Numbered from the stretch's first letter, positions 24,931-47,575 are shown. The stretch is DNA of 55,823 nt from Gammaproteobacteria bacterium (GCA_011374975.1 DRNU01000043.1:1-55823); one strand, 5' to 3'. Numbers and translations are program-made. The notes: generated by a model not told the origin, from the letters alone.

Positions 24931-26241
<1,311 letters not shown>

Positions 26242-26292: not shown

Positions 26293-26319
26293 AGGCCGGA
26301 TTTTCTATCCGGCCTTTTT
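26293..26319 (+). terminator. Intrinsic terminator of serS
   Basis: AGGCCGGAT (26293-26301) and ATCCGGCCT (26307-26315) form a perfect 9-bp stem with a 5-base loop, ending in TTTTT (26315-26319). Confidence 0.92.
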
Positions 26320-26406: not shown

Positions 26407-26433
26407 TAAAGTCTTTTTATATCCTGACGATAG
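26407..26433 (+). promoter_or_regulatory. Sigma-28 (FliA)-type promoter for the chemoreceptor gene
   Basis: TAAAGTCT (26407-26414), an 11-base spacer, then GACGATAG (26426-26433). The enterobacterial FliA consensus is TAAAGTTT-N11-GCCGATAA; one mismatch lies in the -35 part and two in the -10 part. The spacing is exact and the target is a chemoreceptor, the classic FliA class. Confidence 0.7.
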
Positions 26434-26579
26434 GAGGTGATACTGCGGGAAAAGGGAATAAGCCAGGCGGGTTATCGCAGACTGGGTCATCGGCCCGACA
26501 GACCGGTTCTCAGATGGCTCATGCCTGAAGAAACAAATAACCTTCCAAATGTGAAGTGACAGAGATGTGGGGTTTTAGG

Positions 26580-28598
26580 ATGAAACTGACAATCCAGAAT
26601 AAATTATTTTTGAGCTTCGGTGCGGTGCTGCTGGTTGTTGCGCTGGTTTCGATCAACAACTTCGTCAAGATGGGCAAGATCTCCAGTGCCGAGCATAGCC
26701 TGACTGACTTGCGCCTGCCGACGGTGATGGCGGGCATGCAGCTCGCCGATGGTATCCATCAGTCCCTGTCCGGGCTGCGTGGTTATCTGATCCTGGGAGG
26801 GGATCCTGCCAAGGCTGATAAATTCAAGACCGAGCGTCAGCAGGGCTGGTCCCAGATTGACCATGCTGTGCAGGACATGGATGAATTCTCCATAAGCTGG
26901 ACCGACCCCGAAAATGTCGAGATGCTGGATGACTTGAAGGTGCAGATTGAAGCGTTCCGCACTGCCCAGCAGGAAGTGGAAGATATCGCGCATACGTCCA
27001 GGAACATCCCGGCTTTCAACATGCTGCTGACCGAAGCTACGCCACGTGCGTCTGAAATCCTCGCTGCTATTACCGCCATCATCGATGAAGAGTCGCGACT
27101 GAGCGCCACCGCGGAGCGCAAGAAACTGTTGAAGCTGCTGGCTGACAGCCGTGGTTCCTTTGCTGTGGGGCTGGCAAATATCCGCGCTTATCTGCTCTCG
27201 GGCGATACCCGGTTTGCCGATGCCTTCTACGCCAAATGGAAAGTGAATGAGGATCGTTTCAATCAAATCTCGCGCATGAGCGGTATGTTCAACGCCAAAC
27301 AGGCCAGTGCATGGAATACCTACAAAACCCGGCGTGCCGAATTTGCCCCGATGCCTGCCAGGATGTTTGAGTTGCGGGCCGCCGAAGACTGGAACCTGGC
27401 AAACCACTGGCTGGGTACCAGGGCGGCACCTCGCGCCGGCGCCATCATGGAAATTCTCGGTAAAATCCGTGAATCGCAGGATGCCCTGGCTGTAATGGAC
27501 CAGGAGGCGCTGGTAAACGATACCGCGGCCATGGAAACAACCATGATCCTGGGAACCTTGTTTGCCCTGGGGATTGGTGTGTTTGTCTCGATCTTTATCA
27601 GCCGCATGATCAGTGTGCCGCTGAGAGAAGTTGTGGCCCGCGCCAGGGCGATCGCCGGCGGTGACCTCAACGGGGATGCCCTGCGCCCGAAAGGTCATGA
27701 TGAGGTGGCAGAGTTGAGCGTTGCCATTAATGACATGAACAACAGCCTGCGGGATATGGTTCGGCAGATATCGGGCTCGGCGCAGCATATAGGCAGTTCG
27801 GCCGAGGAGCTTTCAGCGATCACCGAGCAGACCAGCCAGAGTATCTGCGAGCAGCAGTCGCAGACTGAACAGGTGGCCACGGCGATGAACGAGATGAGCG
27901 CCACGGTACAGGAAGTCAGCCGGAACATTATCGGCACGGCCCACGCTGCCGAGGAAGCCAACACGGAAACCGTCGAGGGCCGCAGGATAGTTGACGAAAC
28001 CATTCATGCCGTCCAGCAGCTTGCCGGGCAGATCGAAAGTGCGGCGGAGGTCATCCACCAGCTGGAACAGGACAGTGCCAATATCAGTACCGTCATGGAT
28101 GTGATCCGCGGCGTGGCCGAGCAGACCAACCTGCTGGCACTGAATGCGGCCATCGAGGCTGCACGTGCCGGCGAGCAGGGCCGCGGTTTCGCGGTGGTGG
28201 CGGATGAAGTGCGCACCCTGGCCGGTCGCACCCAGCAGTCCACGGAAGAAATCAACCAGATGATCGAAAAACTCCAGACCGGTTCCAGGAAAGCGGTGGA
28301 AGTCATGACCGGGAGCCGGGAAGAAGCACATTCCGTGGCCAGTCAGGCCACGAAAGCGGGAACTTCCCTGTCGGCTATCTCTGACTCGGTGAAACGCATC
28401 AACGACATGAGTACCCAGATCGCCAGTGCGGCAGAGCAACAGAGTGCCACGGCCGAGGAGATCAACCGCAACATAACGAATATCTCCGGCATGGCCAACG
28501 AGACTTCGGCCGGGGCGCAGCAGACGGCGACCGCCAGTGGTGATCTGGCCCGGCTGGGCGCCGAACTCCAGCACGTGGTAGGGCGTTTCAAGGTTTAA
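26580..28598 (+). CDS. Methyl-accepting chemotaxis protein
   Basis: An inner-membrane chemoreceptor of 672 residues from the ATG at 26580 (GTG 26556 and ATG 26565 are alternatives). It has TM1 at about 7-27, a large helical periplasmic sensor to about 320, TM2 at about 321-341, HAMP at about 342-394, then the signalling domain. The tip sequence [28 protein letters not shown] binds CheA/CheW. The sensor contains two related modules ([17 protein letters not shown] and [16 protein letters not shown]), as in helical-bimodular (HBM) sensors that detect small organic acids in other bacteria; the ligand here is unknown. No C-terminal CheR-tether pentapeptide is present. Confidence 0.93.
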
Positions 28599-28630
28599 AT
28601 AATGCCTCCTGCTGTCTGTAACGGACATGC

Positions 28631-28655
28631 AGGGAGGCCCGGTCATGTCGGGCCT
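28631..28655 (+). promoter_or_regulatory. Hairpin over ribosome site and start of the GGDEF-EAL gene
   Basis: AGGGAGG (28631-28637) is a strong ribosome site seven bases before the ATG at 28645. AGGCCCG (28635-28641) pairs with CGGGCCT (28649-28655), with GTCATGT containing the start codon in the loop. The stem would hide part of the ribosome site. No T-tract follows, so it is not an intrinsic terminator. Confidence 0.5.
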
Positions 28656-30927
28656 GGTTCAGTGGCGGGTCAGGCATGGCTGCTACAGGATGGCCGTCTT
28701 TTATATTCATGAGCAGGTAAATGGAAGTATGCGGGAAGAGCATGGACATGGTGAGTTTCTCGATCTCATCGATGCTGGCAATGCGGCCGGACTCAATGAG
28801 GCCCTGCACAGTATTCTGGAAACCATTCTCCAGCTGCCCTGGTTGAGTACCAATGCGGGCGGTATTTTCCTGAACGATACAGCGGCCGGCCAACTCGTGC
28901 TTACCACGCAGATCAATTTCTCCGACCCTATAAAGAATGCCTGTGCGCGGGTCAATTACGGCCACTGCCTGTGCGGGCGGGTGGCAGAATCAGCCAACTT
29001 GATGCATGTGTCCTGTGTCGACGAGCGCCATGAAATCCGTTACGAGGGTATGTGCAACCATGGCCACTACGTGGTGCCCATCACGTTGCGTGAACAGCTG
29101 CTGGGCGTCATGGTTCTGTATATCGATGTCGATCATGCCTACGATGCCGGCGAGGCGCGGGTGCTGGAGAACTTTGCCGGAATTATCGCCCGGCTGGTAT
29201 ATACCACCCAGATCAGCCAGGAGAAACAGCTTGCTGACCTGATTCTTGCGCACAGTTCCCACGGTGTGGTGATTACCGGCCGGGACAAGAAGATCCAGTG
29301 GGTCAACGAGGCCTTCGAAAAGGCCACGGGTTACGCGGCCGGCGAAATCATCGGCAAGGCACTGGCAATGCTGCGTTCGGACCGGCACGGGCCGGAATTC
29401 CATGCAGCTATATGGCGCAGCGTCAGGGAGCAGGGGTTCTGGGAGGGCGAGATCTGGAACCAGCGCAATAATGGCGAGATCTACCCGGAATGGTTGAATA
29501 TCGTTGCCCTGAAGAACCGGCGTGGCGAAGTGTTGCGTTATGCGGGCACGTTTATCGACCTGTCGCATATCAGGGCGGCGGAAGAGAAAATTCACCAGCT
29601 CGCCTATTACGACAGTATTACCGGCTTGCCCAACATGTCCCTGTTGCATGAAAAGCTCGAGGACATGCTGGCCCGTTCCCGGGAGGGTGGCGGCCGGGTT
29701 GTTATCCTGACGCTGGACCTGGATCATTTTCACGAAATCAATGCCGGCCTCGGCCGGCGGGTCGGTGATGCTGTACTGCATGAAGCGGCGCAGCGCATTT
29801 GCAGTGCCGTGGATAATGCTGTCGTGGCCCGCATGGGGGCTGACGAATTTGCGGTTGCCTATCTTGATTCGCAGCATGATGAAGCTGCGACATCGGCCAT
29901 GGCCGGGCGCCTGGCGGCGGACCTCAACGCGCGCCTGCAGGTGGCGCTTGAATTTGAACAACACGACCTGGCCCTCGACAGTTCGATCGGTTTCGCCTGG
30001 GCCAACGGCCGGGACGTGGATGCCGACGCCCTGTTGCGACGTGCTGCTGTCGCACTGGCCGGCTGCAAGAAACAGTCGCGTGGCGGGTATCTGTGTCATA
30101 ACGCTGAAATGGAACAGCAGGCAAATTACCGGCGCTTCCTGGGCATGGCTATCGGCAAGGCTGTCGAGCGTGATGAACTGTACCTGATGTACCAGCCGCA
30201 GGTGGACAGGGCGGGGCAGGTCATCGGTGCCGAAGTGCTGTTGCGCTGGCAGAGCGGGGAATACGGCAATATCCCGCCCGATGTTTTTATCGGTATCGCC
30301 GAGGAGCGGGGTGACATTATCGATATCGGGCGCTGGGTATTCGAGCGCACGCTCGACCAGATGGTCCACTGGCGCAATGAAGGTGTCTGTGACTGCGGTT
30401 ATTTCCCGCGCATGGCGATTAATGTGTCCCCGCACCAGGTGCTGTCAATAAATGCCGTCGAGGAATTCGCCAGGGCCTGTGCCAGTCGCGGTTTTACGCC
30501 GGAATCGATCGAGCTGGAGGTTACCGAAACCAGCATCATGCAGTATTCCGACTATGTCATCGAGCACCTGCAGGCGTTGTCTGAACAGGGTTTTAAAATC
30601 GCCATCGACGATTTTGGCACCGGCTACTCGTCACTGTCCCGCCTGCGTAATTTCCCGGTCAACATCCTGAAAATAGACCGCAGTTTCGTGAGCAGCATGA
30701 CAACCGGCGCATCGGATGCGGCACTGGTGAAATCCATTATCGACATGGCGCATACCCTGGGTTTCCAGGTTATTGCAGAGGGTGTCGAGGAGTTTGCGCA
30801 ACTGGAGATGTTGACGGGCTTCGGTTGCGATATCTTCCAGGGCTACTATTTCAGCAAACCTGTCTCGGCCGACGAATTCCTTGCCTACGCGAAACAGGGT
30901 GTCTGCAAGGCCGCCGGGGCTGTTTGA
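28645..30927 (+). CDS. GAF-PAS-GGDEF-EAL cyclic-di-GMP phosphodiesterase (probable)
   Basis: A soluble multidomain protein of 760 residues: GAF (about 45-195), PAS (about 205-310), GGDEF (about 325-480) and EAL (about 500-750). The GGDEF motif reads GADEF (398-402), so cyclase activity is doubtful. The EAL motif reads EVL (530-532), a variant also known in active enzymes, and the other catalytic elements are present (ELEVTETSIM, IDDFGTGYSS, EGVEE), so it is most likely a phosphodiesterase controlled by the GAF and PAS sensors. It starts 46 bases after the chemoreceptor and is probably cotranscribed from the sigma-28 promoter. I chose the ATG at 28645 for its strong ribosome site; starts at 28627, 28690 and 28729 are possible. 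Confidence 0.9.
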   Translation: MSGLVQWRVRHGCYRMAVFYIHEQVNGSMREEHGHGEFLDLIDAGNAAGLNEALHSILETILQLPWLSTNAGGIFLNDTAAGQLVLTTQINFSDPIKNACARVNYGHCLCGRVAESANLMHVSCVDERHEIRYEGMCNHGHYVVPITLREQLLGVMVLYIDVDHAYDAGEARVLENFAGIIARLVYTTQISQEKQLADLILAHSSHGVVITGRDKKIQWVNEAFEKATGYAAGEIIGKALAMLRSDRHGPEFHAAIWRSVREQGFWEGEIWNQRNNGEIYPEWLNIVALKNRRGEVLRYAGTFIDLSHIRAAEEKIHQLAYYDSITGLPNMSLLHEKLEDMLARSREGGGRVVILTLDLDHFHEINAGLGRRVGDAVLHEAAQRICSAVDNAVVARMGADEFAVAYLDSQHDEAATSAMAGRLAADLNARLQVALEFEQHDLALDSSIGFAWANGRDVDADALLRRAAVALAGCKKQSRGGYLCHNAEMEQQANYRRFLGMAIGKAVERDELYLMYQPQVDRAGQVIGAEVLLRWQSGEYGNIPPDVFIGIAEERGDIIDIGRWVFERTLDQMVHWRNEGVCDCGYFPRMAINVSPHQVLSINAVEEFARACASRGFTPESIELEVTETSIMQYSDYVIEHLQALSEQGFKIAIDDFGTGYSSLSRLRNFPVNILKIDRSFVSSMTTGASDAALVKSIIDMAHTLGFQVIAEGVEEFAQLEMLTGFGCDIFQGYYFSKPVSADEFLAYAKQGVCKAAGAV

Positions 30928-46776: not shown

Positions 46777-47170
46777 GGTGTCGCAAAGCCTGGCGTTGTT
46801 TGCTGGTTGTTTGTTCTGGGGGGGGCCCGGCGCAAAAAACTGGAGGCCTGGGGGGCATTAAAATATATAATTTAGTTTAAGTTTATCATTTAATATTATG
46901 TAATAAATAGATTAATTATCGTTTTCTCTGGCCGGTATTTTTTTCTTGCGGGCATAAAGTTACTTCTCTATCCGCCGCTAAATTGTGGACCAGGACACAG
47001 AATCCCGGGTAACCACATTCTGTTGGAGCAGGACTGCTCCGTCTTTAATGAAGTACAGCAAGTATTACCTTGAGTGCGTCAGGACGATGCAGGGACGGGA
47101 ACGGCGACGGTTCTCTATTTTGCTTCGCCTGTAACGAAGTTCCGCTAAATGAACTGGCCAGGGGTGGATT
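46777..47170. other. Intergenic region with AT-rich block and structured leader
   Basis: 394 bases without a convincing gene. It holds a G8 run (46818-46825), a strongly AT-rich block (46857-46927), a sigma-28-type promoter (46955-46981), then a leader of about 180 bases. The leader includes a perfect 7-bp hairpin GGAGCAG/CTGCTCC (47025-47040). Confidence 0.6.
46955..46981 (+). promoter_or_regulatory. Sigma-28 (FliA)-type promoter for the PilZ gene
   Basis: TAAAGTTA (46955-46962), an 11-base spacer, then GCCGCTAA (46974-46981). Only one base in each half differs from the FliA consensus TAAAGTTT-N11-GCCGATAA. The next gene on this strand is a PilZ protein. Confidence 0.75.
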
Positions 47171-47575
47171 GTGGACAGAAGAAAATCACAACGTAATTGT
47201 ATTCAGGTTGATATTGAAATCGCCCAGCCGGGCGTCAGCCGTTGCCGTGGTCATGCCGAGAATATCAGCCGCACCGGTGTCTCTATTGTACTGTCGGAGG
47301 GTTCGCTGGAATTGCAGCAGCGTTCGGTCATTCTCAATTTCAAGGTGTGGACCGGGAGTGAGACGCTGTACCGCAGGATTTATGCGCGTGTGCTGCGGCG
47401 TGAACAGGACAGGGTTGCGCTGGAGTTTGCCGAACACGATTTTATCGCGGAGGCGATTGTCCAGGATCTGATGTTTTATCAGGGTCGTGAACGCCGCGCG
47501 ATGGCACGTGACTCGCGGGCATATACCGAGGGTGTTATCGTCGGAACCGGCCGGGCGGAGCGGGCTGTCTGCTAG
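47171..47575 (+). CDS. PilZ domain protein (c-di-GMP receptor type)
   Basis: A 134-residue protein with one PilZ domain. The binding motifs are intact: arginines in RRKSQR at residues 3-8 and ENISRTGVSI near 30 (N-x-S-x-x-G). The start is GTG at 47171 with AGGGG upstream. A FliA-type promoter precedes it, suggesting a role in motility. Its TAG stop shares the CTAG palindrome (47572-47575) with the stop of the convergent acyl-CoA synthetase gene. Confidence 0.85.
   Translation: MDRRKSQRNCIQVDIEIAQPGVSRCRGHAENISRTGVSIVLSEGSLELQQRSVILNFKVWTGSETLYRRIYARVLRREQDRVALEFAEHDFIAEAIVQDLMFYQGRERRAMARDSRAYTEGVIVGTGRAERAVC

Follow-up and report, generated by a model that had tools for sequence, protein, structure and literature searches.

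A FliA-type promoter upstream of a chemoreceptor gene and a predicted c-di-GMP phosphodiesterase gene in a gammaproteobacterium, and similar boxes at type IV pilus genes

Background

Several described systems connect the flagellar sigma factor FliA with c-di-GMP turnover, chemoreception or pili. In Escherichia coli, pdeH (yhjH) encodes a FliA-controlled class 3 phosphodiesterase that is co-regulated with flagella (PMC6119863), and in Pseudomonas putida the promoter of the receptor gene mcpG strictly needs FliA, while that of morA needs it partly (PMC5026340). Pch/DipA (PA5017) of P. aeruginosa, a phosphodiesterase with GAF, PAS, degenerate GGDEF and EAL domains, is associated with CheA (PMC3861689), and a review on Legionella names lpp0952, a GGDEF-type gene, among the FliA-dependent genes (PMC5655016). 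Concerning pili, the TAD (type IVb) pilus operon of Bdellovibrio is driven by FliA, while its type IVa pilus genes are described as independent of FliA (PMC5430801).

Here we analyzed a stretch of 55,823 nt (the window) from Gammaproteobacteria bacterium (GCA_011374975.1 DRNU01000043.1:1-55823), in which a sequence-only reading had proposed that a FliA-type promoter links a chemoreceptor gene with the gene of a GAF-PAS-GGDEF-EAL protein, coupling motility to the lowering of c-di-GMP. The locus was compared with the rest of its genome, with members of the same genus and with other genomes of the class.

Results

Promoter site and chemoreceptor gene

The box proposed upstream of the chemoreceptor gene, TAAAGTCT-N11-GACGATAG, was found at 26407-26433 on the + strand, with TAAAGTCT at 26407-26414, an 11-base spacer and GACGATAG at 26426-26433. 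It is identical to the consensus TAAAGTTT-N11-GCCGATAA at 13/16 positions, the three mismatches being counted over the -35 and -10 elements combined, and the TAAAG core of the -35, the 11-base spacer and the CGATA core of the -10 are all present. The T-to-C change in the -35 element (TAAAGTCT) recurs upstream of pilB in one genome (G014) and of pilG in another (G040). The box is intergenic and lies on the sense strand, with 146 bases between the end of the -10 and the chemoreceptor ATG (26580), and transcription of the receptor gene would be expected to start near 26440. The upstream neighbor is serS (24949-26241; Seryl_tRNA_N and tRNA-synt_2b domains), and an intrinsic terminator at 26293-26318 (+ strand, 9-bp stem with a T-run, fold of -16.6 kcal/mol, z -4.5) separates it from the promoter and chemoreceptor unit; as this terminator lies in between, read-through from serS into the receptor gene is unlikely.

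The gene at 26580-28598 (+ strand) encodes a methyl-accepting chemotaxis protein of 672 aa with a sensor, a HAMP and an MCP signaling domain, an identity already assigned by the sequence-only reading and borne out by the Pfam domains 4HB_MCP_1, HAMP, and MCPsignal. The sensor region (about 290 aa) is all-helical and HBM-like, and its predicted model best matched the helical bimodular domain of McpS, followed by the periplasmic part of PilJ (PDB 2yfb and 7zjr); since the TM-scores were low (< 0.5, with sequence identities of about 15% or less), this likeness is only a hint of a helical bimodular fold. Neither the 140-base leader nor the gap between the receptor and EAL genes gave an Rfam match above the gathering score, and a c-di-GMP riboswitch or another known RNA in these two places was rejected. 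The receptor has no close ortholog; in its closest full-length homolog (L002, 37%), a box of 13/16 is located some 150 nt upstream of the start, and FliA-type boxes of 13-14/16 are also present at three other receptor loci (L008, L009, and L014).

Significance of the motif

At a limit of three mismatches to TAAAGTTT-N11-GCCGATAA, the window holds two sites; dinucleotide shuffling (100 shuffles) predicts 0.06, and two sites never occurred in one shuffle. Genome-wide, 39 such matches were counted compared to 19 for the reversed pattern, so that about half of them are noise, a single match needs further support and the score alone is no proof. This background, together with the three mismatches of the box, is what would speak for a chance match, with the receptor gene transcribed by sigma-70 or sigma-54 instead; we consider this quite improbable, because the site is not only intergenic, in sense direction and upstream of a chemoreceptor gene but also of exactly the sub-type that is conserved upstream of pilG, and 0.06 or fewer such sites are expected per window. 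With a matrix built from the fliC and flgM promoters of the genus itself, a window length would be expected to contain 0.017 sites as good as 26407-26433, and the score of the box (18.9) falls just below that of the weakest training site (range 19.5-27.1). Across 274 class genomes, the exact form TAAAGTNT-N11-GACGATAG was encountered seven times, two of them in the source genome, namely in the chemoreceptor box and in the pilG promoter.

The genome encodes FliA (TIGR02479, 269 bits, over the cut-off) as well as FlgM and flagellin, and of the 17 genus genomes that were searched, 15 have a FliA above the TIGR02479 cut-off. At 10/10 flgM loci of the genus the promoter is TAAAGTT[AG]-N11-G[AG]CGATA[TC], and the fliC promoters are mostly TAAAGTTT-N11-AACGCTAA, so that both TAAAGT and GACGATA occur in promoters of genuine class III genes. 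Based on the motif statistics, the fliA gene, the -10 core of flgM and the box at the closest homolog, the proposed FliA-type control of the chemoreceptor gene is well supported at the level of sequence, and the FliA-type promoter at 26407-26433 is very probably real.

The EAL protein and its start

The second gene encodes GAF, PAS, GGDEF, and EAL domains according to Pfam, which confirmed the architecture proposed earlier, with the GGDEF motif reading GADEF. This degenerate form is shared by the window protein and both close orthologs (3/3), in which an intact GG(D/E)EF is absent. On the other side of the protein, the EAL residues E502, N565, E597, D627, D628, K648, E684, and Q704 are intact in the three orthologs and align with those of EAL proteins of known structure, of which 4rnh, a 'motility regulator' that we take to be MorA, matched best; metal- and substrate-binding residues are thus present, and E502 belongs to an EVL motif. 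Given a degenerate GGDEF motif and preserved EAL catalytic residues, the product is predicted to be a c-di-GMP phosphodiesterase with a degenerate cyclase domain. The GAF domain additionally contains a Cys/His-rich stretch (GHCLCGRVA...VDERHE..YE.MC.HGHYVVPI) at residues 79-113, counted on the 732-aa form, which is conserved in 3/3 orthologs and might hold a metal or a redox cofactor.

The start of this gene had been placed at 28645, only 46 bases behind the receptor gene, and this did not hold. Within the frame, the earliest ATG is found at 28627, and the extension upstream of 28729 has a coding-like G+C content by codon position (0.59/0.41/0.68), which was given no weight because the extension comprises only 34 codons. 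In one ortholog (L075, 61%) the first possible start is at the position equivalent to 28729, with none further upstream in its frame, and the similarity to the other (L076, 68%) also begins there, hence both 28627 and 28645 were rejected. The gene accordingly spans 28729-30927 on the + strand (732 aa), and with this ortholog-supported start the gap to the receptor gene amounts to 130 bases.

The gap and the question of an operon

The receptor and EAL genes lie on the same strand, and the gap between them opens with a strong 35-nt hairpin lacking a U-tract (28604-28638, + strand), directly 3' of the stop codon of the chemoreceptor gene. Its fold (-22.2 kcal/mol, z -4.1) was equaled by 0/200 shuffles, and it may be an attenuator, a 3' end or a stabilizer. 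Within the gap, a strict scan detected no sigma-70-type promoter, and FliA-type sites did not exceed 10/16; a relaxed sigma-70 scan reached 8/12 at best, and a weak TATATT element with a poor -35 is located at 28702-28707. The terminator scan in the region remained at chance level. The order of the two genes is not conserved in relatives, and other members of the genus yielded no close ortholog of the pair. The two closest orthologs of the EAL gene (68% and 61%) adjoin unrelated genes, tolB/exbD/YkuD or waaA/thioredoxin, with no receptor beside them, so that the EAL gene can be expressed there without the FliA promoter.

Such a context could mean that the FliA-type promoter serves the chemoreceptor gene only, that the hairpin ends or uncouples transcription and that the phosphodiesterase gene has a weak promoter of its own within the gap. 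The strength of the hairpin, the lack of conservation of the pair with free-standing EAL genes in close relatives, and the TATATT element are in line with this arrangement, which we nevertheless regard as rather unlikely, given that the hairpin has no U-tract, the terminator scan did not rise above chance and the strict sigma-70 scan delivered no promoter in the region and the relaxed one 8/12 at best. Co-transcription of the receptor and phosphodiesterase genes is possible and the simplest arrangement, although gene order in relatives lends it no support, and it is plausible, with somewhat better than even confidence, that the promoter extends to the phosphodiesterase gene. The proposed coupling of motility to c-di-GMP is therefore upheld only in part: the kept EAL residues, the degenerate GADEF and the absence of a better promoter in the gap speak for it, while the misplaced start codon, the hairpin and the two nearest EAL orthologs without a chemoreceptor speak against it.

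A second box in the window

A second FliA-type box, TAAAGTTA-N11-GCCGCTAA, lies at 46955-46981 (+ strand) in the window, upstream of the gene for a PilZ-domain (c-di-GMP binding) protein (47171-47575, + strand; PF07238, E 9.8e-9). Among 15 congeners with a PilZ ortholog, the best box in most is found 190-231 nt upstream of the matched start and has an 11-base spacer, although these boxes are often weaker or degenerate (11-13/16). Two c-di-GMP-linked units of the window thus carry FliA-type boxes, that of the PilZ gene being supported by relatives.

Boxes upstream of type IV pilus and other genes

Elsewhere in the genome, FliA-type boxes are located upstream of flgM, cheV, a gene for a cytosolic CZB-domain receptor, a GGDEF-EAL gene and an HD-GYP-like gene, as well as of the type IV pilus genes pilG, pilB, and pilM. 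Both pilB and pilM were over the NCBIfam cut-offs, while the name pilG is our assignment from the strong match pattern and the context of Pil-Chp regulator genes, and not from a dedicated family model. The pilG box of the source genome (G000:C222:13000-13026, L027) reads TAAAGTTT-N11-GACGATAG, and these elements are identical upstream of pilG in 15/17 genus genomes (loci L027, L156, L157, L166, L170, L171, L178, and L240-L247), while the spacer is variable. The flanking leader sequence is conserved too, therefore selection at the pilG leader is not confined to the promoter. Among families outside the genus, 4/28 showed a box scoring 13/16 or better no more than 450 nt from pilG; shuffled consensus sequences gave 0.09 families on average and never four in 200 trials. 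Upstream of the pilus ATPase gene pilB, boxes are present in five genus genomes (G000, G002, G010, G013, and G014; G000:C113:11053-11079 at L024, and also L165, L172, L248, and L249), with G/C and T/A variants in the -10.

The invariance of the pilG box in the genus, together with its recurrence at pilB and in other families, suggests that FliA may also drive type IV pilus chemosensory genes, beyond flagella. In the literature searched, which was largely without subscription papers, no report of FliA acting on pilG was found. The invariant sub-type upstream of pilG that recurs at pilB in the genus might instead be read by another sigma-70-family factor with FliA-like specificity, in which case the pilG/pilB/MCP sub-type (GACGATAG/GACGAAAA) would mark a type IV pilus regulon and not a flagellar one. 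This appears very improbable to us, as the GACGATA core is shared by flgM, the diagnostic target of FliA, and the search for FliA gave no second sigma factor over the cut-off.

Two further boxes were noted in the source genome. One is a FliA-type box at G000:C151:57289-57315 (L025) upstream of a Ser/Thr protein kinase gene, and the same 27 bases are found upstream of a 93% identical kinase in G015 (L256). The other, TAAAGTTTTAAATGCAAACGCCGTAAC at G000:C112:15769-15795 (L041), is situated upstream of a lysine/alanine-rich histone-H1-like gene; very similar 27-mers, spacer included, are present in G002, G009, G011, and G013, and since the spacer also recurs in these congeners, this may be another kind of element.

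Discussion

The explanation that we favor, and hold to be probable as a whole, is that 26407-26433 is a class III/IV flagellar promoter that would be read by FliA and drive the chemoreceptor gene, and that read-through past the hairpin and the 130-base gap would probably lead to some transcription of the phosphodiesterase gene. Completion of the hook-basal body and export of FlgM would let FliA increase expression of the receptor and, more weakly because of the hairpin, of the phosphodiesterase. The latter would hydrolyze c-di-GMP through its EAL domain under the control of its GAF/PAS sensors, with a presumed effect on swimming.

More tentatively, and with a probability that we would put somewhat below even, FliA of this genus could jointly regulate flagellar chemotaxis, the turnover and sensing of c-di-GMP, and the chemosensory system of type IV pili, with the receptor-phosphodiesterase unit being part of a swimming and twitching regulon. 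Its c-di-GMP part would consist of the EAL protein and the PilZ protein of the window and possibly a GGDEF-EAL protein, and its type IV pilus part of the pilG operon and pilB. The boxes upstream of type IV pilus genes are the less expected part of these results, and the wider pattern matters more than the local unit; if this holds true, a pilG box that is unchanged despite the drift of its spacer would imply that type IV pilus control is likewise licensed once the flagellum has been completed.

The lowering of c-di-GMP driven by FliA is a known logic, to which the unit in the window would add one more case. It would share with pdeH of E. coli the combination of a c-di-GMP phosphodiesterase and the flagellar sigma factor, but pdeH is driven directly by its promoter, whereas the phosphodiesterase gene of the window comes second, after a chemoreceptor gene and a hairpin. 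It resembles mcpG of P. putida in having a chemoreceptor promoter of the FliA type; mcpG and morA were reported with separate promoters, whereas the two genes of the window form an adjacent pair, and MorA, as assigned above, is the best solved-structure match of the window EAL protein. Compared by architecture, Pch/DipA has the same domain order, a degenerate GGDEF and an EAL domain predicted to be active, and it shares the link to chemotaxis. The predicted receptor model is similar to McpS and PilJ (PDB 2yfb, 7zjr) in the all-helical, two-module fold of the periplasmic sensor. The likeness to Bdellovibrio lies in the extension of the flagellar sigma factor to pilus genes, with the difference that type IVb pilins are concerned there, while the boxes described here are placed upstream of the type IVa genes pilG and pilB.
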